The notes under the pieces were generated by a model. The model was not told where the DNA came from, did no database searches, and saw nothing but the letters and a program-made list of their open reading frames with translations. From Sandaracinus amylolyticus (lineage in GTDB: Bacteria > Myxococcota_A > Polyangia > Polyangiales > Sandaracinaceae), in assembly GCF_021631985.1 (NCBI RefSeq), contig NZ_CP070225.1:10540001-10604000 (forward strand): a stretch of DNA of 64,000 nt. The letters run 5' to 3'. This document shows positions 5,318 through 40,241 of the stretch, piece after piece. How positions within the stretch are numbered: the first letter of the stretch is position 1; every line of letters starts with the position of its first letter. A program made the position numbers and the translations under genes.

Positions 5318-6997
5318 TCAGCGCGCGCGCCGCGGGTTCTCGTACACGCTGATGATCGGCACTCCGTCGTACGTGAGGACGTACACCGGATCGACGCGTC
5401 CGAACGCCATCCAGATCTGATAGTCGACCTCCACGAAGTGATCCTCGTGGTGGACGATCGCGTAGTCGGCGCCCGCGAGATCCCAGCTCGCGCGGATGTC
5501 GTCCCGCAGACGGCCGTCGCGCTGCAGCATCCGCCACGCGCTCGGCAGGGTGTCGCAGATCCACACGCTGCCGCGCTCGGGCACGTGCTCGTTCAGCCAC
5601 GGCACCAGGCTGCCCGTGGTGAAGCCCCAGAACTGGCGCATCATCCCGAGGTCCGCCGCGCCCGGGACGCCGCCCGCCGCCGCGCCGTAGAACGAGAGCC
5701 CGTAGGGGTGGCTGTGCACGGTGTCGATCGCGCTCGGCGCGAGCAGCAGCGCCGCCGTCACCGCGGGCGTCGCCTCCTTGATCGCCGGCACGCGCTCCCC
5801 GGCCCACTCGCGCGCCGCGCGCGCGACGCGCACGAACGCGATGCCGGCGAAGATCGCCATGAACGCCCAGCCCGCGATGAAGTGCTTCGTGCCGCCGAAG
5901 ATCGGCGTCCACGGCATCGCGATCACGACCATCGGCGCGAGCATCGAGCCGAACGCGAGCACGTCGGTGCACTGGCGATCGCCCTCGACCCGGCCGTGCG
6001 GCCAGAGGCGCTTCACCAGCCACGGCGGCACCAGCGCGCGCGCCCGCAGCGCGACGCCGGCGATCGCGAGGATCACGACGACGACCGACATCGTCATCAG
6101 CGTCATCACGAAGGGGAACACGATCGGTCCCGGCGGCCCGAAGTAGGTGCGACCGAGGAACGCGGTGTTGTAGTGGACGTGGTGCAGGTGGAACGACGCG
6201 TACTCGGAGAAGCGCGCGGCGGTGTCGTGCCACATCCACGGCCAGAGCCCGACGAAGATCGGCGGCCCGAGCACCGCGAACGCGATCAGCCACCACGGCA
6301 CCAGCGTCGTGACCTTGCCCTTGCCGGCGCGCCGCGCCGCGAGCTCGCCCGGCATCACGAAGAAGAGCCAGTGCACCAGCAGCACGAGCGGGAGGATCCA
6401 CGCGTTGTGCTTGGTCTCCAGCGCGAGCCCGTACGCGATGCCCGCGACGATCGCCCACCGCGGCTCGGCGAGCGAGCGCCAGTAGCAGTACGTGACGAGC
6501 GTCAGCATCGTCACGATCGGCACGTCGAAGCAGTCGAGGTGCGAGTGGTAGAAGACGTTGGGCATCAGCGCCCACGCGACCGCGGCGAACGCGCCCACCG
6601 CGCGCCCGTAGGCGCGCGCGCCGAACGCCCAGATCAGCCAGAGCACGAGCGAGCTCATCAGCATCCCGGGGAACCGGAACGCCATCGAGTCCTCGGGGAA
6701 GAGATCCCACGTGCGGTGGGCGAGCCACGAGAGCGCGAAGAGCGACTTCGGGAGCGAGGGATGCTCGTGGTTGTTCTCCCAGTAGCGATCGATGTTCGCC
6801 TGCTCGAACGCGGCGTCGCGATCCTCGGCGAGCAGCTCGAACCACTGGGCGTAGCGCTCGGCGGCGTCGACGTAGAAGCCCTCGTCGCGGGCCATGCCGA
6901 GGTCGCGCGAGGTCGCGAGGAGCAGCGCGCAGTAGCTCACCGCGAGCACGAGGCCGACGAGGTGATCGCGCCAGCCGAGGGGACGACCGGTGATCAT
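5318..6997 (-). CDS. GT39-type glycosyltransferase, multi-pass membrane protein
   Basis: This is a polytopic inner-membrane protein of about 559 residues with roughly a dozen hydrophobic segments. The first extracytoplasmic loop contains the acidic motif ARDEGFYVDAAERYAQW and then NNHEHPSLPKSL, both typical of the dolichyl-phosphate-mannose/ArnT-like GT39 group. These enzymes move a sugar from a polyprenyl-phosphate donor to a protein or lipid on the outer face of the membrane. The ATG overlaps the stop of the preceding gene as ATGA, indicating translational coupling, and this is why the shorter start was chosen over one 11 codons upstream. Donor and acceptor are unknown. Confidence 0.85.
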   Translation of the reverse strand: MITGRPLGWRDHLVGLVLAVSYCALLLATSRDLGMARDEGFYVDAAERYAQWFELLAEDRDAAFEQANIDRYWENNHEHPSLPKSLFALSWLAHRTWDLFPEDSMAFRFPGMLMSSLVLWLIWAFGARAYGRAVGAFAAVAWALMPNVFYHSHLDCFDVPIVTMLTLVTYCYWRSLAEPRWAIVAGIAYGLALETKHNAWILPLVLLVHWLFFVMPGELAARRAGKGKVTTLVPWWLIAFAVLGPPIFVGLWPWMWHDTAARFSEYASFHLHHVHYNTAFLGRTYFGPPGPIVFPFVMTLMTMSVVVVILAIAGVALRARALVPPWLVKRLWPHGRVEGDRQCTDVLAFGSMLAPMVVIAMPWTPIFGGTKHFIAGWAFMAIFAGIAFVRVARAAREWAGERVPAIKEATPAVTAALLLAPSAIDTVHSHPYGLSFYGAAAGGVPGAADLGMMRQFWGFTTGSLVPWLNEHVPERGSVWICDTLPSAWRMLQRDGRLRDDIRASWDLAGADYAIVHHEDHFVEVDYQIWMAFGRVDPVYVLTYDGVPIISVYENPRRAR

Positions 6998-7983
6998 CGC
7001 GCCGCCTCCCGCGTGCTCGCGGCCCAGCACAGCGTGCGCAGGTGCGGGTTGGGCGCGCTGACGTCGACGTCGATCGTGCCGCGCTGGCCGCGCAGCGCCT
7101 CGGGGATCGCGGCCTCGATGCGCTTCCAGCCGTCGCCGTCGCGGTGCACGAGCCGACCGATCTCCTGCCCGTCGACGCGCACCACGACGTCGACCTCACC
7201 GCCGCTCATCGTGCGCTCGTGCTCCCACCACAGGCCCGCGTGCAGCACCACGCGCTCGCCGAGCGGCACGTCGCGATAGGTCGCGCGCACCGGCTCCTCG
7301 CCCGGCGGGTGCTGCCACACGCAGCGACGCGGCAGCATCTCGAGATCCTCCTCGACCGTCGCGCCGACCCAGAGCCAGGGGCGGCGCGGATCGCACACGT
7401 GCCGCTCGGCGGGCGTCATCGGGCCCGAGCCGAGCCCGCCGCCCGAAGGCCGACCGCCGCGCTGGGGGCGACAGGCGCGCGCCTCGTCGCCCTCGATCAG
7501 CGCGACCTCGGCGTCCATCACGTGCTCGACGAGGTCGTAGAGGATCGGCTCGGGCGCGAGGTCCCAGCGCTCGATGCGCACCCGCCCCACGAGCTCGACG
7601 TGATCGGGCGCGCGCTGCGGGGCCTCGGGGGTGCGGTGGCCGCGGATCGAGAGCTGCCAGAGGCGCGAGTAGGGCGCGAGGTCGGCGCGCCCCGCGCTGC
7701 GCACGTCGAGCAGATCGCCCACCGCCGCGCGCATCAGCGGATCGGCCCAGTGGGGCGCCGACGTGACCACGTCGCCCTCGCGCCACTCGGCGCGCACGCG
7801 CGCGGCGGCGGCCTGCCAGTCGGACCACGGCACGACGCGCGACTGGGTCACGACGTGCGCGACGATCTCGACCACCGCCAGCGCGAGCACGAGCAGCCAC
7901 GCGCGGCTCGCGCGCGGGCGCTGCGTGGGAGCGCGCGGAGGGGGCGCGGCGGGAGCGGGATCGGGCGGGGGGCGCGAGGTCAC
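6994..7983 (-). CDS. Membrane-anchored hypothetical protein coupled to the GT39 enzyme
   Basis: This 329-residue protein has a Pro-rich cytoplasmic start, one transmembrane segment (WLLVLALAVVEIVAHVV, about residues 29-46) and a large extracytoplasmic domain. The domain contains DWQAAAARVRAEW and GDVVTSAPHWADPL near its start and several Cys residues later (ACRP, HVCDP, RRCVW, LCWAA). Its last bases overlap the start of the glycosyltransferase, so the two are almost certainly translated together. It may deliver, hold or modify the acceptor of that enzyme; this is inference from linkage alone. I do not recognise a named family. Confidence 0.75.
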   Translation of the reverse strand: MTSRPPPDPAPAAPPPRAPTQRPRASRAWLLVLALAVVEIVAHVVTQSRVVPWSDWQAAAARVRAEWREGDVVTSAPHWADPLMRAAVGDLLDVRSAGRADLAPYSRLWQLSIRGHRTPEAPQRAPDHVELVGRVRIERWDLAPEPILYDLVEHVMDAEVALIEGDEARACRPQRGGRPSGGGLGSGPMTPAERHVCDPRRPWLWVGATVEEDLEMLPRRCVWQHPPGEEPVRATYRDVPLGERVVLHAGLWWEHERTMSGGEVDVVVRVDGQEIGRLVHRDGDGWKRIEAAIPEALRGQRGTIDVDVSAPNPHLRTLCWAASTREAAR

Positions 7984-8099
7984 GGGGGCGGCAGGATCGC
8001 GCCCTCGGCGCGTTCGCGGCCGAATCCTAGCCCGAAGACCACTCGTGTCGATCGTCGCCGTTCGACGACCACGAGCGTCGGCGACGCGGTGTCGTCAGC

Positions 8100-19842: not shown

Positions 19843-21405
19843 ATGGCGCACCAGAAGGAGTCCGCGGCGCCCACGCGTGAGGTCGAGCCGGCGCTGCGCG
19901 ATCCCGAGCGGCTGATCGGCCAGACGCTCGGCGGCAAATATCGCGTGTCGGGCGTGCTCGCGCGCGGCGGGATGGGCCGCATCTACCGAGCCGAGCAAGT
20001 ACCGCTCGGACGCCCCGTCGCGCTCAAGGTGCTGCACTCGGAGCTCGACGAGACCGGCGGCGATCCCGGCTTCCAGAAGCGCTTCCTGCTCGAGGCCGCG
20101 AGCTGCGCGCAGCTGCGGCACCCGAACATCGTCGTCGTGTACGACTACGGCCGGCTCGAGGAGTCGTCGCGCGAGGCGTACTTCATGGCGATGGAGCTGA
20201 TCGAGGGGCCGACCCTCGGTCAGGTGCTGCGCGACGAAGGGCCGCTCGCGATCGCGCGGGCGCTGCGCATCACGCGCGAGGTCGCGCGCGCGCTGCGCGA
20301 GGCGCATCGCCAGGAGATGGTCCACCGCGACCTCAAGCCGTCGAACGTGATGCTGGTGACGACGGGCGAGGGCGAGCAGGTGAAGGTGCTCGACTTCGGG
20401 CTCGTGAAGGTGATGCGCGACGACTCGGAGGAGCTGACGAAGGAAGGCCACTTCCTCGGCTCGCCGAAGTACATGGCGCCCGAGCAGATCCGCCGCGGCC
20501 CGGTCGACGGGCGCGCCGATCTCTACGCGCTCGGCGTGCTGCTCTACCAGATGATCTCGGGGCGCGTGCCCTTCGAGGGCGACGATCCGGTGCAGACGCT
20601 GATGGCGCACCTGAACGATCCGGTGCCGCCGATCCCGAGCACGATCGAGGTGCCGCCGAGCGTGCAGCAGCTCTTGCTGCGCTGTCTGCAGAAGGACCCG
20701 GCGCTGCGCTTCGCGAGCGCCGAGGAGCTCATCCGTGCGATCGACGAGATCGCGCCGATGGTCCCGGGCTGGAGCGCGCAGGCGCGGCACGCGATGACGG
20801 TGTCGGGGGAGATCGCGACGATGGGCTCGTCGTCGTTCCCGCTCTCGCTCGGCACCGCGCCGCCGCCTCCGGTCGCGGCGGCACCTCCGGCGCGCACGGG
20901 GCGCGGCGCGCGGATCGCGATCGTGGCGGGTGTCGCGGTCGCGGCGGGGCTCGCGGCGATCGCGAGCAGCGGCGGTGGCGAGCCCGAGATCGCGGCGCCG
21001 CCGGTGATCGCGACCCCGCTGCCGCCGAGCCCGCCGCCGGTCGAAGCGCCGGCGCCGCGGTTCACGCTCTTCGTCGCGAGCACGCCGCAGGGCGCGACGC
21101 TGCGGCGCGGCGACGAGGTCATCGGCACCACGCCGACGTTCGTCGAGCTCGAGCGCGCGGCGCTCGAGAGCTCGCCCGCGACGTTCCGCGTCGAGCTCGA
21201 CGGATACGCGCCGTACGTGTGGACCCAGGGCCCTTCGAGCGACGACGTGCACGTCTCGGCGGAGCTCGCGGCGCTGCCTCCGGCGGTGGTCGCGCCTCCG
21301 GTCGAGCCGACGCCCGAGCCGCGCGTCGAGCGACGCCGTCGCGATCGTGATCGAACGACGACGACGACGGGCGGAGAGGACTTCGCGATCAAGACGCGCC
21401 GCTGA
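19843..21405 (+). CDS. Ser/Thr protein kinase with transmembrane anchor and PEGA-like extracytoplasmic tail
   Basis: This is a eukaryotic-type kinase of 520 residues. The Gly loop is ARGGMGRIY (about 40-48), the ATP Lys is in VALKVL (62), the catalytic loop is HRDLKPSN (161-168) and DFG is at 184-186, with APEQ after it. All key residues are present, so it should be active. A single transmembrane helix (IAIVAGVAVAAGLAAIA) follows at about 350, then a Pro-rich linker and a PEGA-like domain (LFVASTPQGATLRRGDEVIG) placed outside the cytoplasm. The TonB-dependent receptor gene begins 22 bases downstream, so the two probably form an operon. The ATG is the first that fits the kinase domain; the upstream frame is not protein-like. 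Confidence 0.92.
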   Translation: MAHQKESAAPTREVEPALRDPERLIGQTLGGKYRVSGVLARGGMGRIYRAEQVPLGRPVALKVLHSELDETGGDPGFQKRFLLEAASCAQLRHPNIVVVYDYGRLEESSREAYFMAMELIEGPTLGQVLRDEGPLAIARALRITREVARALREAHRQEMVHRDLKPSNVMLVTTGEGEQVKVLDFGLVKVMRDDSEELTKEGHFLGSPKYMAPEQIRRGPVDGRADLYALGVLLYQMISGRVPFEGDDPVQTLMAHLNDPVPPIPSTIEVPPSVQQLLLRCLQKDPALRFASAEELIRAIDEIAPMVPGWSAQARHAMTVSGEIATMGSSSFPLSLGTAPPPPVAAAPPARTGRGARIAIVAGVAVAAGLAAIASSGGGEPEIAAPPVIATPLPPSPPPVEAPAPRFTLFVASTPQGATLRRGDEVIGTTPTFVELERAALESSPATFRVELDGYAPYVWTQGPSSDDVHVSAELAALPPAVVAPPVEPTPEPRVERRRRDRDRTTTTTGGEDFAIKTRR

Positions 21406-25028: not shown

Positions 25029-28000
25029 ATGCGCCCGTGGATGTTCGGTGTCTCGCTGGTGGTCCTCCTCGGCGCCGTGAATCCAGCACGCGCGCAGCTC
25101 TGTCCCGCAGTGACCGGACTGACACTCACGTGCGGCAACGGCACGTGCGATGTCGGTGAGTCCGCCACGAGCTGCGTGACCGACTGCGTCGATCGGAATA
25201 CGCGCGCCGTCGGTTATTACTCCGAATACTCGCACTGCCCGGAGAGCCTGATCTATCGGCCCCGGACCATCGCCGAGATGCAGATGGCAGTGCGTGAGCT
25301 CGTCGCCCAGAACCGGCGGATCAAGTTCATGGGAAGCGGCCATTCGACGGCCGGCAACTTCTGCTCCGACGGCGGTGTGATCATCACTCAGGCGCTCGAC
25401 GGAATCTCCGAGATCGAGCCGTGGAACGGCCACGAGACGGTGGTCGTCGAGCCCGGCGTCAGCTTCACTCAGCTCACCGATCATCTCGCCGCGCGCGGCA
25501 AGTGGCTCGGCTACACGGTGGTGGGCTACGGCCCGATCAACGTCGTGGGCGGAGTCGCGACGGGCATCCACGGATCGAGCACCGGAGGCACGGCCGCGAT
25601 CTCGAGCCGAGTGCTCGAGATCGACATGGTCCGGCCCGACGGGACGATCGTGCGCAGGAACGCGCAGAACACCACGGCCGACGAATGGCGCGTGCTGCGC
25701 GCGAACCTGGGCGCGCTCGGCGGCATGGCGCGAGTCCGTCTCGCGGTCGACGACATCACGAACCTCCGCGGGCACTCCGAGGAGATCGCAGTCACGCAGA
25801 GCATCGTCCCCGAGGACATCGACGCGCTGACCGCCGGGTGCGACTACGCGTTCTTGATGTTCTATCCCGGCAACGACCGCTGGGTGCGATTCTGCGGCGA
25901 GGAGACGAGCGCGCCGGTCACTCATCCCGGCGCGGTGAATCACCTCTTCTCTCCCGACGTGACGCCGTTCGAGTCCGACTTCTTCCAGACCTCGGCGCAG
26001 CTCTCGGCGTGCACGCCGAGCCTCGAGCCGTTCTTCGAGAGCCAGGCCATCGAGCGCATGGCGTCGAGCCCGATCTGCATTCCCGACGGCGCAGGTGGCT
26101 GTGCTGATCGCGTGAACGACGCGGTCGGGCCCGGCCATCGCATGCTCACGATCGATCGCTTTCCCGACACCCAGCCTCGGTATTCGCAATACGACCTCGA
26201 GGTCTCGGTGCGCGCCGAAGAGGCGGCGGCGATCCTGAACTACATCAACGACCGATTCGATCGCGACGGGCGAGGGATGCCGCTGGTCGGCGCGGTCGTG
26301 CGGTTCGACGAGGCGCGCGACGACACGCTGTTCGGCAGCAACGCGGTCCGTCCGGGGATCGCGGCGGGTGATCGGATCGTGCACATCGAATTGCCGTTCT
26401 TCCGGCCCTATTCGTTCACCGATGCGCAGCTCGCCGCGTACTCGCGACCGTACACCGACACGATGGAGTGGATCACCGCGCGCTACCCGCACGCTCAGCT
26501 CCATTTCGGCAAGAACACGGCGGCGCTCTTCGCCAATGCGGCGCATCGCGCGAACACCGCGGCCCGACTGGCGCGCTTCCAGGCGGTCATCGACGCGTGG
26601 GATCCCTATGGCGTCTTCGCGAACGACTACCTGCGGAACCTCGGATTCACCTGGCCGAGAGACGGACAGCGATTCTCCTCGGTCTACGTCACGGGCGACG
26701 TCGCGACGTCCGCGCACTCGCAGACGGGCGCGCTCTTCGCGATCCGGAGCGAGTCGTCGGGGCGCTGTCTCTCGATGATCGGTGAGCCCGGGCTCTTCCT
26801 CGACGGGAGCATCCTCGGGATCTTCCCGGGTGAGACGCGGAGCTGCACCGGCGCGACCGAGGAAGCCAATCCGCGACAGCGCTTCTTCGTGCGAGACGTC
26901 GCGAGCGGGAAGTTCGTGCAGACGCTCGAGCGGAATCGGCGCTATTCGATCCATCCCGAGGACAATCCGTACGCGATGTGCCTCGACTCGCTCTGGGGCC
27001 TCGACTACCGATTCGCCGCCTGCAACGGCTCGACCGCGCAGCAGTTCATGCTCGAGCTCGACGCCAACGGCATCGGTCGCGTGGTCGCGATGAACAACAC
27101 GACCGGCGGGTGCATGAACGACCTCGCAGGGAGCGACGCAGTCGCCGTCGGCTTCTGCTCGCCGTGGAGCAATCCCGCGAATCTCCGCTGGCGATTCAGC
27201 CCGCTCGAGACGCGCACGATGCTGCGAGTCGCGGGCGTCGGCGGTGATCCGTACTGGATCGATCGGCTGGCGATCGCGGGGCTGGATCTCTCGCAGGTGA
27301 GCGCGATGAGCCTGCCCCAGCTCTCGGCGCTCATCGACGACGACTCGGTGATCGTCTATCGGCAGCGTGTCGTGGACAACCGCAGCGGCGCTGCCGCGCC
27401 CGGGTTCCGAGTGTGCCCGCGAGCGCCCGACGGCACGATCCTCCGCGGCGCCGACGGCCGCGAGCTCGCCTGTGCGTACACCGATACGAACGGGTACTTC
27501 ACGATGCTCGGTCTGCCGCGGAACGTCGATGTCGCACAGACCATCTCGCGCAAGGGATTCCTCCAGGCGACGATCGTCTTCAGCACGACGTACGAAGACT
27601 ATTTCGAGCAGGAGTACAGCGGCACTGCCTCGGTCACCGCAGCGAGCCTCGGGCTCGGTGTCGACTCGCGCTTCCCGTTCACGTGCGGATACGGTCGTCG
27701 CCCCGGATACGGCGACGCGGCGCTCACCGTCGTGGACGAGCAGGATCCCGTGGGCTCGCGCGGCTACGGCGTGATCGAGGCCGGCGACTACGACGGTCAC
27801 GGCACCGGCGGCGCGACGTTCCGCATCTTCACGGACGACGGGTCGGGCACGTTCGCGATTCCGTATCCCGACGTCGTCGGCAATCGCCCCGATGGTCCTT
27901 CGGGGCCGGACGGAATCCCCGACGGGCTCAAGTACCTCGGGCCCTCCACGAACATCCTGCTCGGTGGCTCGGAAGTGCCCACCAACGACCGAGTCGACAC

Positions 28001-28190
28001 CTACGATCCGTATGGCGGCGCGATGGTGTTCAGCATGCCCGACGGCATCTACGAGGCCGAGGTGCACCACCCGAATCCCGCGGTGAGCTGCTATCCCGGG
28101 CTCGACGCGTGGCTGGGCACGACCGCCGATCGCGCGCGATTCGTGATCGTCGAGGGACACCTCAGCGACGTGCGCTTCTTCTGTGAATAG
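25029..28190 (+). CDS. Large secreted FAD-linked oxidase with lectin-like and carbohydrate-binding C-terminal regions
   Basis: This 1053-residue exported protein has a signal peptide ending NPARAQ, then a short Cys module (CGNGTCDVGESATSC) of a type common in secreted myxobacterial proteins. An FAD_binding_4 domain follows (about residues 70-220) with GSGHSTAGN, where the His at 105 is the usual site of covalent flavin attachment, and VGGVATGIHGSS. The next 320 residues resemble the ALO (arabinono-lactone oxidase) C-terminal domain, ending at AWDPYGVFANDYLRNLG. Residues about 550-730 look like a ricin-type beta-trefoil (ESSGRCLSM, CLDSLWGLDYRFAACNGSTAQQF, GGCMNDLAGSD). The final 320 residues include a carboxypeptidase-regulatory-like segment (TDTNGYFTMLGLPRNV). 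Sugar or sugar-acid oxidation is the likely activity, with the substrate unknown. Confidence 0.85.
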   Translation: MRPWMFGVSLVVLLGAVNPARAQLCPAVTGLTLTCGNGTCDVGESATSCVTDCVDRNTRAVGYYSEYSHCPESLIYRPRTIAEMQMAVRELVAQNRRIKFMGSGHSTAGNFCSDGGVIITQALDGISEIEPWNGHETVVVEPGVSFTQLTDHLAARGKWLGYTVVGYGPINVVGGVATGIHGSSTGGTAAISSRVLEIDMVRPDGTIVRRNAQNTTADEWRVLRANLGALGGMARVRLAVDDITNLRGHSEEIAVTQSIVPEDIDALTAGCDYAFLMFYPGNDRWVRFCGEETSAPVTHPGAVNHLFSPDVTPFESDFFQTSAQLSACTPSLEPFFESQAIERMASSPICIPDGAGGCADRVNDAVGPGHRMLTIDRFPDTQPRYSQYDLEVSVRAEEAAAILNYINDRFDRDGRGMPLVGAVVRFDEARDDTLFGSNAVRPGIAAGDRIVHIELPFFRPYSFTDAQLAAYSRPYTDTMEWITARYPHAQLHFGKNTAALFANAAHRANTAARLARFQAVIDAWDPYGVFANDYLRNLGFTWPRDGQRFSSVYVTGDVATSAHSQTGALFAIRSESSGRCLSMIGEPGLFLDGSILGIFPGETRSCTGATEEANPRQRFFVRDVASGKFVQTLERNRRYSIHPEDNPYAMCLDSLWGLDYRFAACNGSTAQQFMLELDANGIGRVVAMNNTTGGCMNDLAGSDAVAVGFCSPWSNPANLRWRFSPLETRTMLRVAGVGGDPYWIDRLAIAGLDLSQVSAMSLPQLSALIDDDSVIVYRQRVVDNRSGAAAPGFRVCPRAPDGTILRGADGRELACAYTDTNGYFTMLGLPRNVDVAQTISRKGFLQATIVFSTTYEDYFEQEYSGTASVTAASLGLGVDSRFPFTCGYGRRPGYGDAALTVVDEQDPVGSRGYGVIEAGDYDGHGTGGATFRIFTDDGSGTFAIPYPDVVGNRPDGPSGPDGIPDGLKYLGPSTNILLGGSEVPTNDRVDTYDPYGGAMVFSMPDGIYEAEVHHPNPAVSCYPGLDAWLGTTADRARFVIVEGHLSDVRFFCE

Positions 28191-28259: not shown

Positions 28260-31200
28260 TCAGCGCCGCGCGCGGGCGGCGCGCCGTGCTGCGGCGCGGC
28301 TCGCGACGGCATCGAGCTGCGCGTCGGGCTGCGCGGTCCCGCCGAGCTGCGCCGCGAACGCGCGCACCGTCGGGAAGCGGAACACGTCGGTCATCGCGAT
28401 CGGCTTGCCGATCGCCTCCACGAGCCTGCGGTGCAGGCGCACCGCGAGCAGCGAGTGCCCGCCGAGCTCGAAGAAGTTGTCGTCGCGACCGACCTCCGCG
28501 ACGCCGAGCACCTCGCGCCAGATCGCGGCGACGTCGCGCTCGAGATCGTTGGCGGGCGGTGCGCTCGTCGCCTCGGGCGCGCTCGTGGTCGCGTCGTCGG
28601 GCGCGGGCAGCGCGTTGCGATCGACCTTCTTGTTCGGCGTGAGCGGGAAGCGCTCGAGCGCGACGAAGCGCGAAGGGACCATGTAGCTCGGCAGCGTCGC
28701 GCGGAGGTGCTCGCGCATCGTCTTCGCGTCGACCGGCGGATGGGCCGTGACGTACGCGACGAGCTCGGCGTCGCCGCCGGTGCCGGCGCGGGCGATCACC
28801 ACGGCTTCGCGCACGCCCTCGCACGTCGCGAGCGCGGCCTCGATCTCGCCGAGCTCGATGCGATACCCGCGCACCTTCACCTGATGATCGACGCGCCCGA
28901 GGAACTCGAGACGGCCGTTCGCGCGCCACCGCACGCGATCGCCGGTGCGGTAAATGCGCGCATCGGGATCGCTCGAGAACGGATCGCGCACGAAGCGCTC
29001 GCTCGTGAGCTCGGCGCGATGGAGGTACCCGCGCGCCACGCCGCGCCCGCCGATCCACAGCTCGCCCGATGCGCCCAGCGGCACGAGCCGGCGTCGCTCG
29101 TCGAGCACGTAGAACGTCGTGTTCGCGATCGGCGTCCCGAGCGTGATCTCGTCGCGCACGGTGTCGGTCGAGGACCAGATCGTGGTCTCGGTCGGCCCGT
29201 ACATGTTCTCGATGTGCTCGACGCCGGCGCGCCGCAGCTCGTGGACCAGCGTGCTGGGGAGCGCCTCGCCACCGATCATCAGGTGCTTCACGCGGCCGAG
29301 CGCAGCGCGCGATGCGTCGTCGAGCAGGAGCATCCTCGCCATGCTCGGGGTGCACTGCAGGTGCGTGACCGCGTGTCGCGCGACGTCGCGCGCGAACGGG
29401 TGCTCGGTCGCGATCGGCGGCTCGGGGCGCGCGGTGCGACGCACCACCTCGGCGAGGTGCGGCAGGCTCGCGAGCACCGTCTTCGTCTCGACGCCGAAGT
29501 CGATGAGGCACGCGATCTCGTCGACGCCGAGCGCCTTCAGCTGCTGCACGCGAGCGACGCAGTCGTCGACCGATCCCAGAAGTCCGCTCTCCTCGAAGTA
29601 GCGGTGGAACGCGTACTCGAGCACCGCGTCGATCTCCTCGGCGTCGAGCGTCGCGAGATCGATGTTGTCGGGGTGGCTCGCCCCGTGCGGACGCTTGAGC
29701 GCGGGGAACATCCACACGTACTGCTTGATCAGCGACGCCGCGCTCGCGAGGTACTTCTTGAGCGGCTCGCGCGTCGCTTCGCGCGCGATCTCGCGATCGG
29801 GCGCGACGAACGTGTGGAGCATCAGCGTGACCTTGCCCGACGCAGGATCTCTCCCGAGCTCGGCGAGCCGATCGCGATAGATGCGGATCTTCCCCGCGAG
29901 CTCCTCGATCGACTGACCGAGCAGGTGCGTGAGCACGTTCGCGCCGATGTCCGCGGCCTGCCGGTACGACTCGGGGTTGAGCGCGATCGTCAGCCAGATC
30001 GGGAGATCGCGTTGCACGGGCCTCGGCTGGCTCACGACCTCGTGCAGGCTGCCGTCCTTGCGCGCGAACGCGACGCGCTCGCCGCGCCACACGCGACGCA
30101 GCACCTCGATGTCGCGGAACATCGCGTCCTTCGCGGCCGGCGGCGTGTTCTCGGGGCGCAGCACGAAGTCGTCGGGCTGCCATCCCGACGCGATGCCGAG
30201 CCCCACGCGCCCTTCGGTGAGGTTGTCGATCATCGCCCACTCCTCGGCGACGCGGAGCGGATGATGGAGCGGCAGCACCACGCTCGCCGCGCGCACGTGG
30301 ACGTTCTTCGTGATCGCCGCGACCGCCGCGCCCGAGACCGACGGGTTCGGGAAGGGACCGCCGAACGCGTGGAAGTGCCGCTCGGGCGTCCACACTGCGT
30401 GGAACCCGTTCGCGTCGGCGAAGCGCGCGCCCTCGAGCAAGAGCTCGTACTTGCCCTTGCCCTCGCGATCGTCGTTGCCCCAGTAGCAGAGGCCGAAGTC
30501 CATCGGCTTCGCCGCGATCTCCGGCGGCACGATCGGCGCGGGCGCGGCGCGCGGCTCGTCGTCGCGCTCGCGATCACGATCGCGATGCACCACGACGCGG
30601 AACCCGCGCGAGAGCGTCCACAGCAGCTCGAGCACCGAGATGTCGAACGAGAGGCTCGTCACGGCGAGCCACACGCCCGGCGGGTCGTGCGCGATGCGCG
30701 CGTCCATCCCGACGAAGAAGTTGGCGACCTGACGGTGCTCGACCATCACGCCCTTCGGGCGGCCCGTCGATCCCGAGGTGTAGAGCACGTAGGCGAGGTG
30801 CTCGGGGCGCGCGTCCACGTCGCCGATCCGCGTGCGGCTCGTGATGTCGCGTAGCTCGTCGACCCGCACCGTCGTCACGTGCGAGAAGCGCGGCGCGAGC
30901 GAGCGCTGGGTGACGACCACCTGCGCGCCGCTGTCCTCGAGCATCATCGCGACGCGATCGCGCGGGAACGCGGGATCGAGCGGGAGGTACGCGCCGCCCG
31001 CCTTGAGCACGCCGAGCACCGCGACGACGAGCTCGATCGAGCGCTCCACCGCGACGGCGACCAGGCGCTCCGGGCCGACGCCGAGCGTGCGCAGGCGATG
31101 CGCGAGCGCGTTCGCGCGCGCATCGAGCGCGCGATACGTGAGCGTCTCGTCCTCGAAGGCGAGGGCGATCGCGTCGGGCGTGCGATCGACCTGCTCCTCG

Positions 31201-32810
31201 AAGAGCCGCTGCAGGCAGGCCTCGCGCGTCTCGACCGCGCTGCGGTTGAGGTCGACGAGCAGCCGCGTGCGCTCGTCGTCGGACAGCAGCGAGAGCGAGC
31301 GGACCCTGCGCTCGGGCTCGCGCGCGATCGTCGCGAGCAGCGTCTCGAGCGACGCGATCCCCTGCGGGCAGACCGCTCCGTCGCGCACCACGCCGACGCG
31401 CCCATCGTCCGAGACGTGCAGCGTGAGCAGCGCGCCGCGCGCATCGAGCGTCTCGGGCAGCTGCGCGTGCCGCACGATCACGACCGCATCGCGCTCCGAG
31501 CGCGTTCGAGCCCGCAGATCCCGCGCGAACGTGCCCTCGTCGCGCATCGCCGCGAGCTCGCTCTGCACCTGCCCTAGGGCGCTCGCGACCGTCGTCTCGT
31601 CGTCGATCACGACGCGCAGCGGGATCACGTCGGCGAACCACCCCTCGACGCCGCGCACTCGCTCCGCGAGCGCCGCGTCGGTCCAGCCGATCCGCGTCGC
31701 GTCGAGATCTCCGATGCGCGCCAGCGCGACCGCGAGCGATGCCGCGACGGCATCTCCATCACCGCTCGTCGCGAGCATCCTCGGCGCCGGATGCTGCGCG
31801 TCGCTCGCCTGCGGCAGCACCGGCGCCGGCGCGCGCAGCCGCGCCGCCCACCACCGCTCGTGCCCGCACAGCTCGCGGTGCATCGCGCTCAGCCGATCGC
31901 TGGTCGCCGCATCGAGCGACTCGAGGCACGCGCCGGCCGCGATCGTGATCGGCCCGCCGTCCGCGTCCGCGATCGACGTGATCGCGATCGCGCCATCCCC
32001 ACACGCGACCACGACGCCGTCCTCACCGACCTCGAGCACCTCCCCGGGGCGCGCGCCGCCGCGCTCCACCACCTTCGCCGCGCGCACCAGCAGCACGCGA
32101 TCGCCGAGCCGCGTCTTCGCGATCGCGAGCGGGTTCTCGTAGCTCCCGAAGTCGAGCGCGCGCACCAGCGCGAGCACTTCGCGCGCAGGGCGCGACCAAT
32201 CGATCGTCGCGACGGCAGCCGGCCGATCGTGCCGTGCGAAGTAGGTGCGCCGCGACAGATCCTGCGCGCGGGGTGCGAGCGTTCCGTCTTCGATCGCGCC
32301 GAGCATCTCGCGGAACGTGTCGATGCCTGCCGCGAAGCACTTCGCGTCGAGCGTGAACGCGGTCTCGTCCTCCGCGATCTCGATCTCGCGCTGCGCGCAG
32401 ATGCGCCCTTCGTCGACACCGCCTTCGATGAGGTGCCACGTCACGCCGTGCGTGCGCTCGCCCGCGATCAGCGCCCAGCTCGTCGCGTGCAGCCCCGCGT
32501 AGCGAGGCAGCGGGCCGTCGTGGAAGTTGATCGCGCCGTGCTTCGCCTTCGCGAGGACGTCGTCCGGCACGATGCGCAGGTTCGCCGCGCTGAGGATCCA
32601 GTCGACCTCGATCGACTCGAGCCGCGACGCGAGATCACGCCCCGGCGCGACGACCCGCAGCGCGCGCTGCTCGGCCCACGCGCGCACGTCCGGCGCGTCG
32701 GTCACGAGCGCGGGGATCGTGTGCCCGCGCGCGAGGAGCATCTCGCCGCATTGAACGGTGAGTGACTGCGCTCCGAGGACGAGGAACGCGAGCGGACGTC
32801 GTTCGTGCAT
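28260..32810 (-). CDS. Formylating single-module NRPS with luciferase-like monooxygenase inserted in the A domain
   Basis: This 1516-residue synthetase has an unusual domain order. A formyltransferase domain spans about 1-300, with INFHDGPLPRYAG near 95 and GGVDEGR near 130. Residues about 315-480 resemble the C-terminal part of a condensation domain (GWFADVIPLRVVID) but lack HHxxxDG. Adenylation follows: A1 LTYRALD near 559, A2 LKAGGAYLPLDP near 604, A3 LYTSGSTGRPKG near 675, and A4 FDISVLELLW near 723. A luciferase-like monooxygenase occupies about 769-1120 (MDFGLCYWGNDD, GRVGLGIASGWQPDD). A5 MYGPTETTIW follows near 1203, and A8 is GRVDHQVKVRGYRIELGEIE. The carrier domain has GGHSLL near 1451. 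No thioesterase is present. The closest described class is the MupA/Atu3671 type. Hand-read specificity residues D-L-Q-M-G-M-I-W suggest an alpha-amino acid of unknown kind. Confidence 0.93.
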   Translation of the reverse strand: MHERRPLAFLVLGAQSLTVQCGEMLLARGHTIPALVTDAPDVRAWAEQRALRVVAPGRDLASRLESIEVDWILSAANLRIVPDDVLAKAKHGAINFHDGPLPRYAGLHATSWALIAGERTHGVTWHLIEGGVDEGRICAQREIEIAEDETAFTLDAKCFAAGIDTFREMLGAIEDGTLAPRAQDLSRRTYFARHDRPAAVATIDWSRPAREVLALVRALDFGSYENPLAIAKTRLGDRVLLVRAAKVVERGGARPGEVLEVGEDGVVVACGDGAIAITSIADADGGPITIAAGACLESLDAATSDRLSAMHRELCGHERWWAARLRAPAPVLPQASDAQHPAPRMLATSGDGDAVAASLAVALARIGDLDATRIGWTDAALAERVRGVEGWFADVIPLRVVIDDETTVASALGQVQSELAAMRDEGTFARDLRARTRSERDAVVIVRHAQLPETLDARGALLTLHVSDDGRVGVVRDGAVCPQGIASLETLLATIAREPERRVRSLSLLSDDERTRLLVDLNRSAVETREACLQRLFEEQVDRTPDAIALAFEDETLTYRALDARANALAHRLRTLGVGPERLVAVAVERSIELVVAVLGVLKAGGAYLPLDPAFPRDRVAMMLEDSGAQVVVTQRSLAPRFSHVTTVRVDELRDITSRTRIGDVDARPEHLAYVLYTSGSTGRPKGVMVEHRQVANFFVGMDARIAHDPPGVWLAVTSLSFDISVLELLWTLSRGFRVVVHRDRDRERDDEPRAAPAPIVPPEIAAKPMDFGLCYWGNDDREGKGKYELLLEGARFADANGFHAVWTPERHFHAFGGPFPNPSVSGAAVAAITKNVHVRAASVVLPLHHPLRVAEEWAMIDNLTEGRVGLGIASGWQPDDFVLRPENTPPAAKDAMFRDIEVLRRVWRGERVAFARKDGSLHEVVSQPRPVQRDLPIWLTIALNPESYRQAADIGANVLTHLLGQSIEELAGKIRIYRDRLAELGRDPASGKVTLMLHTFVAPDREIAREATREPLKKYLASAASLIKQYVWMFPALKRPHGASHPDNIDLATLDAEEIDAVLEYAFHRYFEESGLLGSVDDCVARVQQLKALGVDEIACLIDFGVETKTVLASLPHLAEVVRRTARPEPPIATEHPFARDVARHAVTHLQCTPSMARMLLLDDASRAALGRVKHLMIGGEALPSTLVHELRRAGVEHIENMYGPTETTIWSSTDTVRDEITLGTPIANTTFYVLDERRRLVPLGASGELWIGGRGVARGYLHRAELTSERFVRDPFSSDPDARIYRTGDRVRWRANGRLEFLGRVDHQVKVRGYRIELGEIEAALATCEGVREAVVIARAGTGGDAELVAYVTAHPPVDAKTMREHLRATLPSYMVPSRFVALERFPLTPNKKVDRNALPAPDDATTSAPEATSAPPANDLERDVAAIWREVLGVAEVGRDDNFFELGGHSLLAVRLHRRLVEAIGKPIAMTDVFRFPTVRAFAAQLGGTAQPDAQLDAVASRAAARRAARARR

Positions 32811-32895: not shown

Positions 32896-33768
32896 ATGAC
32901 CCGCACCGACGAGCTGTCCCGCCGTCTGATCGCCGCGTCGCGCGACGAGCTCTACGACGTCTATCGTCGCTTCGAGTGGACCGATCGGCTCGACCGCGAT
33001 CGGTACGCGATGCCACCGGAGCTCCTCACGCTCCACGGCACGCCGATCTGGGGTGATCTGAGCGACGAGCAGCGCCATCGCCTCTCGATCGCGGAGACCG
33101 CGAACCTCTTCGCGAACACGCTGCACGGAGAGCAGGCGCTGGTCGCCGGGCTCAGCGAGCGCCTCTACGGCGCGAAGCTGAGCGACGAGATCACCGACTA
33201 CCTCCATCACTTCCTCGACGAAGAGAACAAGCACATGGTGATGTTCGGCGTCTTCTGTCGGAAGTACGTCGGCCGCGTGTACCCCGATCGCAGCGTCGCG
33301 TTCCCGAAGATGCTCGCGCCCGGCGAGGACGAGATCGGCTTCTACGCGATGGCGATGGTCGTCGAGGACTTCGGCGACTTCTACAACGTGCGGACCATGA
33401 AGGACGATCGCTGCGACGCGCTGGTGCGCGAGATCTCGCTGCAGCACCACATGGACGAGTCGCGCCACCTGGCGTTCGATCGCGCGTACCTCGGCGAGCT
33501 GACCGAGCGCTGGCTGCCCCAGTGGGACGAGGCCCAGCGCGCGAAGTTCGCGGCGTGGCTGCGCGGCTTCATGGAGGCCAACTGGTCTCTCTACTACAAC
33601 CCGAGCGCGTACAAGGACGCGGGGATCGACGAGCCCTACGTCGCGCGCAACCTCGCGATGGCGCACCCCGCGCAGGTCGCGCACCGCACGCGCGTGTCCG
33701 CGAAGCTCGTGCGCTTCTTCGAGAAGATCGGACTGCTCCCGGCTACGGCGGAACCGGACGCAGCCTGA
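32896..33768 (+). CDS. AurF-like diiron oxygenase (N-oxygenase family)
   Basis: This 290-residue ferritin-like enzyme matches the AurF family, whose members oxidise amines to hydroxylamines, nitroso or nitro groups. Two metal-binding motifs are visible, LDEENKHMVMF and HHMDESRHLAFD, plus ETANLFANTLHGEQALV, which supplies the early Glu-x-x-His type ligand. The start MTRTDELSRR is preferred over an open frame of 46 codons upstream that overlaps the NRPS start region. The gene is divergent from the formylating NRPS. AurF-like enzymes also occur with NRPSs in the ham/mgo-type diazeniumdiolate loci, which supports a joint role in making a small N-oxidised compound. The actual product is unknown. 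Confidence 0.9.
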   Translation: MTRTDELSRRLIAASRDELYDVYRRFEWTDRLDRDRYAMPPELLTLHGTPIWGDLSDEQRHRLSIAETANLFANTLHGEQALVAGLSERLYGAKLSDEITDYLHHFLDEENKHMVMFGVFCRKYVGRVYPDRSVAFPKMLAPGEDEIGFYAMAMVVEDFGDFYNVRTMKDDRCDALVREISLQHHMDESRHLAFDRAYLGELTERWLPQWDEAQRAKFAAWLRGFMEANWSLYYNPSAYKDAGIDEPYVARNLAMAHPAQVAHRTRVSAKLVRFFEKIGLLPATAEPDAA

Positions 33769-37992: not shown

Positions 37993-38607
37993 TCACGCGC
38001 GCGCCGCCTTCTCGCGCCGCGCGAGCACCCACGCCATGAGGGCCCCCGCGAGGAACCCGAAGAGATGGGCCTCCCACGACACGCCCGGGGTGCCCGGGAG
38101 CACGCCCCACACGAGCCCGCCGTAGAGCACCGCGACCAGGAGCGACCCCAGGATCGTGCTCACGCGCCGCTCGAACCATCCGCCGAGCAGCAGGTAGCCG
38201 AGCCACCCGAAGACGAGCCCGCTCGCGCCGATGTGCACGCTGCCGGTCTGCCCGAACATCCACACGCCGAGCCCACCGAGCACGATCACCGCGGCGCTCA
38301 CCGCGAAGAAGTGCCAGGTCTCGCGCAGCATCACGAACCAGCCGAGCACGATCAGCGGCACCGTGTTCGCGATGAGGTGCGGGAACCCCGCGTGGAGGAA
38401 GGGCGAGAGCGGGATGCCGATCAATCCCGCGATCTCGCGCGGACGGATGCCGAACGCGTCGAGGTAGCCGCCGAGGAAGACGTCGACGATCTCCTCGGCC
38501 CACAGCACCGCGACGAGGATCGCGAGCACGAGGCCGTGCAGCTTCAGCTCGCGACCGAGGTCGGCGAACGTCGGCTCGCGAACGCGCTTCGTCGGTGCAG
38601 CGGCCAT
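37993..38607 (-). CDS. Rhomboid-family intramembrane serine protease
   Basis: This is a 204-residue six-helix membrane protein. The catalytic Ser lies in HIGASGLVFGWLG (GASG motif) and the catalytic His in SWEAHLFGFLAGAL. The oxyanion-type residues are in FLHAGFPHLIANTVPL (HxxxN). Rhomboids cut transmembrane helices of other proteins inside the membrane. The first helix starts at ELKLHGLVLAILVAVLWAEEIV. The start is taken at MAAAPTKRV, because the 13 codons before it are unlikely. No substrate can be named; several single-pass exported proteins are encoded nearby, including the MYXO-CTERM-like one. Confidence 0.9.
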   Translation of the reverse strand: MAAAPTKRVREPTFADLGRELKLHGLVLAILVAVLWAEEIVDVFLGGYLDAFGIRPREIAGLIGIPLSPFLHAGFPHLIANTVPLIVLGWFVMLRETWHFFAVSAAVIVLGGLGVWMFGQTGSVHIGASGLVFGWLGYLLLGGWFERRVSTILGSLLVAVLYGGLVWGVLPGTPGVSWEAHLFGFLAGALMAWVLARREKAARA

Positions 38608-38770
38608 CGTGCCTTCGAACAGGCTAGCAGACGCGGTCCTTCCCATCGCTCACCCCGCGGGCGCGGTGGCGTCGCGTCGCGCGTGGGGCGGAGTGCCTCG
38701 CGGTGCGGCCCTCTCGCACGTCCCCGGCACGGGCACGCGCGATGCGATGCCCGTGGCCAGGAGGCCGGAC

Positions 38771-39097
38771 ATGCCGCGGTGGAGCCCGAAGGACGAGCGC
38801 AAGTACGAGCACATCAAGGAGAGCCAGGAGGAGCGCGGCACGCCCGCCCCGCGCGCGAAGCAGATCGCGGCGCGCACCGTGAACAAGCAGCGCCGCCAGG
38901 AGGGCCGCACGCCCAACAAGACGACGCAGGGAACGGGCAACCCGCGGCGCTCGCTCGAGGACCGCACCAAGCAGGAGCTCGTGAACCTCGCGCGCGAGAA
39001 GGGCATCGCGTCGCCGAGCCGGAAGAAGAAGGACGAGCTGGTGCGCGAGCTGCGGAGCGGTCATCGCGCGGCCGCACGTCGCTCGCGCTCGCGTTGA
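38771..39097 (+). CDS. Small basic protein with Rho-N/SAP-like C-terminal motif
   Basis: This 108-residue, Lys/Arg-rich protein begins MPRWSPKDERKYEHIKESQE. This motif is shared by a widespread family of small bacterial proteins of unclear role (previously noted as plasmid-stabilisation-like). The C-terminal half (TKQELVNLAREKGI, KKKDELVRELRSG) fits a Rho N-terminal or SAP-type helix-extended-helix that binds nucleic acid. A perfect AGGAGG lies six bases before the ATG, which fixes the start. The high positive charge suggests binding to DNA or RNA. Probably cytosolic. Confidence 0.85.
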   Translation: MPRWSPKDERKYEHIKESQEERGTPAPRAKQIAARTVNKQRRQEGRTPNKTTQGTGNPRRSLEDRTKQELVNLAREKGIASPSRKKKDELVRELRSGHRAAARRSRSR

Positions 39098-39130
39098 TCG
39101 GGGGGCGCGCGGCGGGTAAGTCGGCTCGCC

Positions 39131-39616
39131 ATGACGAAGACGACCGACCTCTGCGATGCCCATCCCGAGCTCGTGCGCGTGTGCGATCCGATCTTCCGCT
39201 CGTACGGCGCGCGCGTCGTGTTCGACGGACCGATCGCGACGCTGAAGATCCACGAGGACAACGCGCTGGTGCGCAAAGCGCTCGAGGAGCCGGGCGCGGG
39301 GCGCGTGCTCGTGGTCGACGGCGGAGGATCGATGCGGCGCGCGCTGGTGGGCGATCAGCTCGCGGCGCTCGGCGCGAAGAACGGCTGGTCGGGCGTGGTC
39401 GTCTACGGGTGCATCCGCGACAGCGCGGACATCGCGACGATCGATCTCGGGGTCGTCGCGCTGGGCACCCACCCGCGCAAGAGCGACAAGCGCGGAGTCG
39501 GCGTGGTGAACGAGCCGGTGACGTTCGCGGGCGTGACGTTCGTGCCGGGGCAGCACGTGTGGGTCGATCACGACGGCGTCGTCGTCACCGAGCGCAAGGT
39601 CGAGGTCAGCGGGTGA
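39131..39616 (+). CDS. rraA: RraA family protein (regulator of RNase E activity / HMG aldolase fold)
   Basis: This 161-residue protein belongs to the RraA family. Key motifs are VDGGGSMRRALVGDQLAALG, followed by NGWSGVVVYGCIRDSADI, the conserved GCIRD loop. RraA binds and inhibits RNase E in some bacteria; other members with the same fold act as 4-hydroxy-4-methyl-2-oxoglutarate aldolases, and the sequence alone does not decide. The metal-binding Arg and Asp (GxxxD and IRD) are present. It starts about 30 bases after the small basic protein on the same strand, which may also bind RNA. The 3' end overlaps the next minus-strand gene by 11 bases. Confidence 0.92.
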   Translation: MTKTTDLCDAHPELVRVCDPIFRSYGARVVFDGPIATLKIHEDNALVRKALEEPGAGRVLVVDGGGSMRRALVGDQLAALGAKNGWSGVVVYGCIRDSADIATIDLGVVALGTHPRKSDKRGVGVVNEPVTFAGVTFVPGQHVWVDHDGVVVTERKVEVSG

Positions 39617-40241
39617 GATCGAACGCGGCGCGCCGCTTCGCCTTCGCGGCGGAGCGCAGCGCGCCGCGCACCACGAGCGCGCCGAGCTGAGAGCCCAGGA
39701 TCGCGAGAAGCAGCGTCGGCTCGACGGTCCAGCGCGACACGAGCGAGAGCAGCAGCCCGGTGCCGACGCACACGCCGAGGATCCGGAACCACACCGGCCG
39801 CCCGCGCACGCCGCCGAAGCGCGCCGCGCGCAGGCTCAGCAGCGCGAGCGCCAGCGCCGACGCCAGCACGAGCGGCAGCGCGACCACCGTGAGCGCGATG
39901 TCGGCCCATCGCCCGACGCCCTCGGTGCGCGGGTGCGGCAGGACGAGCCCCTCGACGATGCCCGGCTCGTCGTCCGGTCCTTCCACGTCGAAGCCGTCCT
40001 TCACCGCGGCGACGGTGACCAGCGCGCGCGCCTCGTCGCTCGTCACGTCGCGGATCGGCGTGCGCGGCTTCGCAGGCTCGGCTGGCCGCGCCGGCTCGCG
40101 ATAGGCCTCGTTCTTCTTCGCGACCGGCGGCGCGGCGGGCGCGTCCTTCTTCTTCGCCGCCTGGAACGCGCCGCAGTGCGGACAACGCACCGCGGTCGGG
40201 CTCATCGCCCGACCGCACGAATCACAAGCCCTGCCTCCCAT
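39606..40241 (-). CDS. Zinc-ribbon membrane protein, hypothetical
   Basis: This 211-residue protein starts with a double CxxC zinc ribbon (CDSCGRAM, RCPHCGAF), followed by a charged Lys/Ala/Pro linker and a short acidic domain. Two or three transmembrane helices follow, ADIALTVVALPLVLASALALALLSL and GLLLSLVSRW onwards. Such zinc-ribbon plus helix proteins are common in myxobacteria and mostly unstudied. It lies 36 bases after guaB, on the same strand, and may be cotranscribed with it. No catalytic motif is visible. Confidence 0.8.
   Translation of the reverse strand: MGGRACDSCGRAMSPTAVRCPHCGAFQAAKKKDAPAAPPVAKKNEAYREPARPAEPAKPRTPIRDVTSDEARALVTVAAVKDGFDVEGPDDEPGIVEGLVLPHPRTEGVGRWADIALTVVALPLVLASALALALLSLRAARFGGVRGRPVWFRILGVCVGTGLLLSLVSRWTVEPTLLLAILGSQLGALVVRGALRSAAKAKRRAAFDLTR

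Follow-up and report, generated by a model that had tools for sequence, protein, structure and literature searches.

A predicted glycine-type NRPS-like protein that unites a formyltransferase with a luciferase-like monooxygenase inside its adenylation domain, and its relatives in exopolysaccharide loci

In the myxothiazol and melithiazol pathways, a monooxygenase housed within a glycine adenylation (A) domain hydroxylates the alpha carbon; the peptide is then released in amide form and the carrier keeps a glyoxylyl group, according to the parts of the two papers available to us (PMC10204066, PMC11342130). This monooxygenase is placed between core motifs a4 and a5 in the accessible text of PMC10204066, and that of PMC11342130 counts 38 corallorazine-like pathways with a monooxygenase inside a glycine A domain. 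In solanimycin, as far as the excerpts go, the hydroxyglycine stays in the product and the domain lies between a8 and a9. Conglobatin begins with a formylating, glycine-specific loading module followed by a polyketide synthase (PKS), and oxazolomycin does likewise; the gramicidin F domain acts on a carrier-bound residue in vitro, as cited in the same partially available paper (PMC4504003).

Here, we describe an NRPS-like protein of Sandaracinus amylolyticus in which formyl capping and oxidation inside the A domain, each known singly, are united in one protein. No description of a formyltransferase (FMT), an A domain with a luciferase-like monooxygenase (LLM) and a carrier in combination was found in the open-access literature. 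The gene lies in a stretch of 64,000 nucleotides (the window; G000:C1:10540001-10604000) within a 10.96-Mb genome (G000). The features that the analysis draws on are as follows.

28260..32810, minus strand: NRPS-like protein of 1516 aa, FMT - C-lobe - A(LLM) - PCP; start ATG 32810, with 32741 possible (ORF call, Pfam, NCBIfam)
31920..32810, minus strand: formyltransferase, residues 1-297, ArnA/Fmt type with C-terminal part; N95, H97, D133 triad (Pfam, ArnA fold match, alignment)
31251..31910, minus strand: condensation-domain C-terminal lobe, about residues 301-520 (sub-threshold Pfam match, profile match, EntF model alignment)
30546..31220, minus strand: A domain part 1 (A1-A4), residues 531-755; pocket D723, I724, L727 (Pfam, NCBIfam, alignment)
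29445..30497, minus strand: luciferase-like monooxygenase insert (TIGR04020), residues 772-1122 (NCBIfam, structure match, alignment)
28608..29393, minus strand: A domain part 2 (A5-A10), residues 1140-1401; remaining pocket residues (Pfam, alignment)
28347..28535, minus strand: peptidyl carrier protein, attachment Ser1453 in GGHSLL (Pfam, alignment)
32896..33768, plus strand: divergent AurF-type di-iron oxygenase, ATG 32896, earlier start codons open (Pfam, genome profile search, alignment)
G000:C1:2578846-2583516 (L054:13846-16000 with L055:1-2516), minus strand: second copy, FMT-C-lobe-A(LLM)-PCP, 1556 aa, with 48% identity to the copy in the window

The Pfam analysis of the NRPS-like protein revealed Formyl_trans_N (57-158), Formyl_trans_C (201-291), AMP-binding in two stretches (the best at 537-750), Bac_luciferase (783-1098, 164.7 bits), AMP-binding_C (1322-1395) and PP-binding (1426-1488). 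The stop codon follows 28 residues past PP-binding, so no thioesterase is present after the carrier, whose serine was kept in 40 of 44 alignment rows. The A4 motif (FDIS) was located at residues 719-729 and the A5 motif (NMYGPTE) at residues 1201-1212, with the monooxygenase at 772-1122 between them, as the preliminary description had proposed. That description gave the insert about 400 residues; the barrel itself comprises about 351 residues (29445-30497), and the earlier interval takes in linkers too. The insert passed the curated NCBIfam threshold of TIGR04020 (244.45 bits) with a score of 468.8 bits. The statement that this placement is reported for other oxidising modules agrees with the myxothiazol, melithiazol and corallorazine-like systems, as portrayed in the available text of PMC10204066 and PMC11342130.

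The AlphaFold2 predictions used alignments restricted to proteins of the window and the loci. For residues 305-1412, the model had a pLDDT of 85.3 and a pTM of 0.62, a value at which the relative orientation of the domains is uncertain. Within this model, the A core of TycA was superimposed over 384 of 399 residues at 1.9 Å (model positions 221-1003), with the alignment spanning the insert, while the insert matched the flavin monooxygenase domain of PuwE (6ket) with a TM score of 0.92 (target length), 2.6 Å and 47% identity, and with 353 bits at the sequence level. The preliminary description had asked whether both folds are intact; in the predicted structure the A core is closed around the insert, a complete PuwE-like barrel is seen and the flavin pocket is judged only by homology with PuwE. 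In the model, therefore, the A fold and the barrel both look complete.

The specificity pocket was read by motif at what we take to be the GrsA pocket positions, and D723, I724, L727, Q1152, M1178, G1180, M1203, I1211, W1212 and K1395 gave the code DILQMGMIWK. The suggested comparison with annotated A domains placed this code one residue away from DILQLGMIWK, which four glycine domains with MOX share in the portion of PMC12283262 at hand; the window code is thus of the MOX-bearing glycine type. The pattern DILQ-x-G-[MLV]-[IV]-W-K was observed in all 42 complete codes of an alignment of 44 rows, which includes the window and a few rows without FMT. Judged by this code, the A domain of the window protein is glycine-type.

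The region ahead of the A domain was modelled with high scores (residues 1-530, mean pLDDT 92.4, pTM 0.88). N95, H97 and D133, which are presumably the catalytic residues of the formyltransferase, were invariant in the 32 rows of alignment A2 and present in 37 of the 44 rows of the wider alignment, in which rows without an FMT domain are included. Behind the formyltransferase, Pfam gave a Condensation match under the cut-off (383-441, 17.6 bits). A profile of 32 sequences (the window and 31 relatives) matched the C domains of McyB and teixobactin synthetase (Txo) from chain residue 252-261 onward, and the alignment of the 305-1412 model with EntF starts at EntF residue 179. The HHxxx[DE] motif was not found ahead of the A domain; a complete upstream condensation domain (HHxxxDG) is therefore absent, and its N-lobe was not found. 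Taken together, the profile match, the EntF alignment and the missing motif show that the condensation domain retains its C-terminal lobe but not its N-lobe, and that the formyltransferase occupies the position of the N-lobe, which we infer it has replaced. When VIA-align was searched for the condensation-lobe fold, the list was filled by formyltransferases, and the lobe rests on the profile and the EntF alignment.

Chance or an assembly artefact as the source of this architecture was ruled out, since the LLM is 80% identical in the related genome G001 and the same domain order is kept in dozens of loci. A 62%-identical relative was also found in a Sandaracinaceae MAG. A scan of genome contigs yielded 50 loci, and the formyltransferase motif was present in 49 of 62 A-LLM-A rows, a set that includes plasmid and near-identical rows. 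By domain BLAST and motif check, the same order occurs in Rhodobacteraceae, Aminobacter, Rhizobium, Myxococcota and Planctomycetota. The FMT - C-lobe - A(LLM) - PCP architecture is thus a conserved family. Within the phylum of the window, the formyltransferase part was detected in 21 of 235 genomes (E <= 1e-40). An LLM match was present in nine of the ten genomes of the window's family, and the window type of LLM (at least 80% identical) in two of the ten (G000 and G001).

A tree of the A and LLM part (61 rows, quick method, SH-aLRT, 19 of 57 inner branches open) paired the window copy with that of G001 (100); the larger set around it (100) has 38 rows, among them Alphaproteobacteria and two myxococcal MAGs. 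The second G000 copy joined those of other family members (99). A single origin of the FMT fusion is at most a tentative view, as this tree calls for four changes for the FMT rows, some of the others being truncated at contig ends. When the surroundings of the window copy were compared with those of G001:C14, its nearest relative, a single match turned up apart from the NRPS itself, at 33% identity; it involves the window ORF 19843-21405, which Pfam assigns to the protein kinases. The closest relative (L081:1-14620) lies near a 2267-aa NRPS-like protein and a FAD_binding_4/GST_C protein. No NRPS neighbour like the 2267-aa one was called beside the window copy, and the FAD_binding_4 proteins near the two copies did not match each other in the neighbour comparison.

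In the window, ten neighbouring ORFs were scanned with Pfam, and none was recognised as a flavin reductase, a thioesterase, a PKS or another NRPS module. At 25029-28190, a FAD_binding_4/lactone-oxidase-type protein of 1053 aa is convergent to the NRPS, and its second half gave no clear Pfam match. A neighbour had a borderline MYXO-CTERM match (20.2 bits, cut-off 20), which, with the relative in the Sandaracinaceae MAG, indicates a myxobacterium. The AT skew was strongly positive at 38001-40000 (0.243) and 6001-8000 (0.180), with the other 2-kb blocks within about 0.12 of zero.

The relatives are mostly located in exopolysaccharide loci, to which the window copy is an exception. Their neighbours, as identified by Pfam, comprise Wzz, O-antigen ligase, an initiating sugar transferase, Poly_export/SLBB, glycosyltransferases, a KS-AT-KR-DH-ACP-TE PKS and a PPTase. 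At least one polysaccharide marker was detected by phmmer in 27 of 36 FMT loci vs none of 13 other loci, a count that is partly circular because the marker queries were drawn from FMT loci and partner plasmids, and in which L027 and L034 among the 13 are probably FMT-type loci cut at contig ends and several have short flanks. The chance figures for these marker counts were made after the data had been seen. The nine markerless FMT loci are L004, L006, L008, L024, L029, L030, L031, L039 and L043. Poly_export, a Wza-type export gene, was found within 6 kb of 11 of the 16 copies in the window's order and of 12 of the 29 copies in its phylum (11 found by LLM and 18 by FMT), which leaves one of 13 outside the order, where many contigs are short; each genome with these copies has just two to four Poly_export genes. 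In the five family copies whose surroundings were read (G002, G005, G007, G008 and the second copy of G000), the genes run Poly_export, NRPS, Wzz-type, with a PPTase in between in G005; the second copy of G000 accordingly sits between a Poly_export and a Wzz-type gene. Around the window copy, no polysaccharide marker was found in the 64 kb, and the nearest Poly_export gene is about 194 kb away.

Twelve plasmid records covered at least 80% of the query; seven were examined, two of them without a gene table, and the tables of all five others agree with a polysaccharide setting. These tables give the TIGR04020 family name to whole relatives. A marker was present in seven of nine examined plasmid loci with the FMT motif (none in L062, Methylobacterium, and L063, Aliiroseovarius) and in none of five loci without it, though the gene table of L066 (Deinococcus) lists capsule and polysaccharide genes. 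At L066:11074-21899, an A-LLM-A protein without the formyltransferase motif is followed by a PKS, with capsule-type genes at the flanks, and this locus is possibly the same pathway minus the formyl cap. The preliminary description stood as regards the placement of the insert and its precedents; the glycine residue, the C-lobe remnant, the second copy, the family and the polysaccharide setting had no mention in it.

We consider it fairly likely that the window protein acts by itself as an initiation module that is specific for glycine, formylates it and contains its own oxygenase, on the grounds of the glycine code, the A4-A5 precedents, the conglobatin loading module and the PKS and PPTase in the loci of relatives (each in 24 of 36 FMT loci). 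The whole of the chemistry and its order, which we infer, would run as follows. The A domain would activate glycine and load the carrier, and the formyltransferase would cap the amino group of glycyl-S-carrier with a formyl group. The LLM, with reduced flavin and oxygen, would then hydroxylate N-formylglycyl-S-carrier at its alpha carbon, the formyl cap being the proposed counterpart of the upstream acyl chain in myxothiazol-type modules, by which an N-acylglycine would be offered to the oxygenase. By analogy, oxidation of the loaded starter is plausible, and the formyl step probably precedes it, since the oxygenase in the precedents acts on N-acylated glycine. The product would be an N-formyl-alpha-hydroxyglycyl thioester or, on collapse, a glyoxylyl thioester and formamide, and it would be handed to a separate enzyme, which in many relatives may be the KS-AT-KR-DH-ACP-TE polyketide synthase of the same locus. 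In the single PKS that was scanned, KS came first, and a KS-first PKS is proposed as the natural acceptor in many relatives. The rule suggested is that any N-acyl cap, even formyl, can ready glycine for an LLM-type oxygenase.

The role of the formyltransferase bears on this reading. Its best structural match was the ArnA formyltransferase (Z 28.0, 281 residues, 2.4 Å), and most relatives lie in polysaccharide loci, as would be expected if it worked on an amino sugar rather than on carrier-bound glycine and were fused just for co-expression. That function is quite unlikely in our estimate: tRNA formyltransferases score alike (Z 26-27), the known formylating modules have the F-A-PCP order in the accessible text of PMC4504003, and the fusion persists at loci in which no polysaccharide gene turned up (the window and L004). 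The resemblance to sugar (ArnA) as well as tRNA formyltransferases nevertheless makes the acceptor ambiguous. L040, one of the 53 rows in the tree set, carries a complete C domain instead of FMT, which speaks against the initiation-module reading. That the insert is an inactive relic is very improbable, given the many invariant residues inside it over 37 rows and its 80% identity to the nearest relative (L004), vs 41-66% for the other domains. Whether the hydroxylated residue is retained is a branch within the preferred initiation-module reading, so that the two probabilities are not additive. The carbinolamide might collapse, with formamide leaving and a two-carbon glyoxylyl thioester staying, which would make the formyl a disposable leaving group. 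Such a collapse is described for myxothiazol and melithiazol, with an oxygenase and an A domain of the kind found in the window protein, in the parts seen of PMC10204066 and PMC11342130; we regard it as rather doubtful here, because alpha-hydroxyglycyl is retained in solanimycin (where the domain sits between a8 and a9, as far as the excerpts go) and a formyl group would be costly to spend merely to lose it.

Oxidation of nitrogen instead of carbon, by the LLM or by the neighbouring AurF-type enzyme, would yield an N-hydroxyformamide or a related N-O group. The AurF-type gene is divergent to the window copy, with a gap of 85 bases to the NRPS start if it begins at ATG 32896, and E, ExxH, E, H, ExxH, which we take to be the di-iron ligand pattern of the AurF type, was present in all five aligned sequences, the window included. 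Two of the seven AurF matches in G000 are strong (137 and 136 bits, the next 35.5); one adjoins the window copy and the other lies 11 kb from the second. AurF is also near the NRPS in G008 (same genus, 12 kb), G005 (10 kb), and G059 (about 2 kb), and lies 33 kb away in G212; it is a possible partner of the NRPS. It adjoins a separate A-domain protein in G059 (assigned by Pfam), G005 and G212, however, and may serve another residue. At E <= 1e-15 it was detected in 12 of 26 genomes and not in the other 14, and, among 55 loci, it was found in the second-copy locus only. The cited LLM precedents act on carbon, and nitrogen oxidation therefore appears unlikely. A general partnership with the NRPS was also judged weak, the enzyme being near it in only some Myxococcota. 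At L100:15993-18472, an AurF-type oxygenase lies beside a stand-alone A-domain protein, between an FMT-type NRPS and a PKS; this A-domain protein has 65% identity both with the AurF-adjacent one in G005 and with one that was read in part, close to AurF at the second G000 locus.

More tentatively, and with doubt prevailing, the initiation-module reading may be extended to a widespread class of polysaccharide-locus NRPS. In this class the single module might make an N-formyl-alpha-hydroxyglycyl (or glyoxylyl) thioester, from which a small acyl group would be built with the help of a partner PKS, a PPTase of its own and a glycosyltransferase, joined in some lineages by an AurF N-oxygenase. This group might decorate, prime or anchor a polysaccharide that is exported, and the window copy would be a secondarily freed member that keeps the AurF link. 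Assembly-line enzymes with a job in extracellular sugar coats were not found in the open-access literature; if the link is functional, such enzymes would have a role there. The single-module size allows easy testing in vitro.

Among known systems, the window protein belongs with TIGR04020, the MupA/Atu3671 family of FMN-dependent luciferase-like monooxygenases, above whose cut-off it scores. That model covers the oxygenase domain alone and is silent on product or context, whereas the window protein also has FMT, C-lobe, A domain and PCP. The NRPS of the MtaG/MelG type (presumably the protein names of the myxothiazol and melithiazol-type module) and the corallorazine-like NRPS are alike in having a flavin monooxygenase inside a glycine A domain, at the a4-a5 site for myxothiazol and melithiazol, a likeness drawn from the papers' descriptions in the parts available. 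In those same descriptions they take an upstream chain and release by thioesterase, whereas the window protein, compared with the MtaG/MelG type, lacks the N-lobe of the C domain, has a formyltransferase ahead of the C-lobe and ends after the carrier. CongA (conglobatin), OzmO (oxazolomycin) and LgrA (linear gramicidin) share with it a formyltransferase before the A domain and carrier, as far as the excerpts show; in the window protein this domain has the N-H-D triad. The LgrA initiation-module structures aligned with the 305-1412 model only from about model residue 183-206, near the A domain, with no match to the C-lobe. Glycine is predicted for CongA, and a PKS comes next in conglobatin, as in many relatives of the window protein; the available text of PMC4504003 mentions no monooxygenase for CongA, whereas the window protein carries the LLM.
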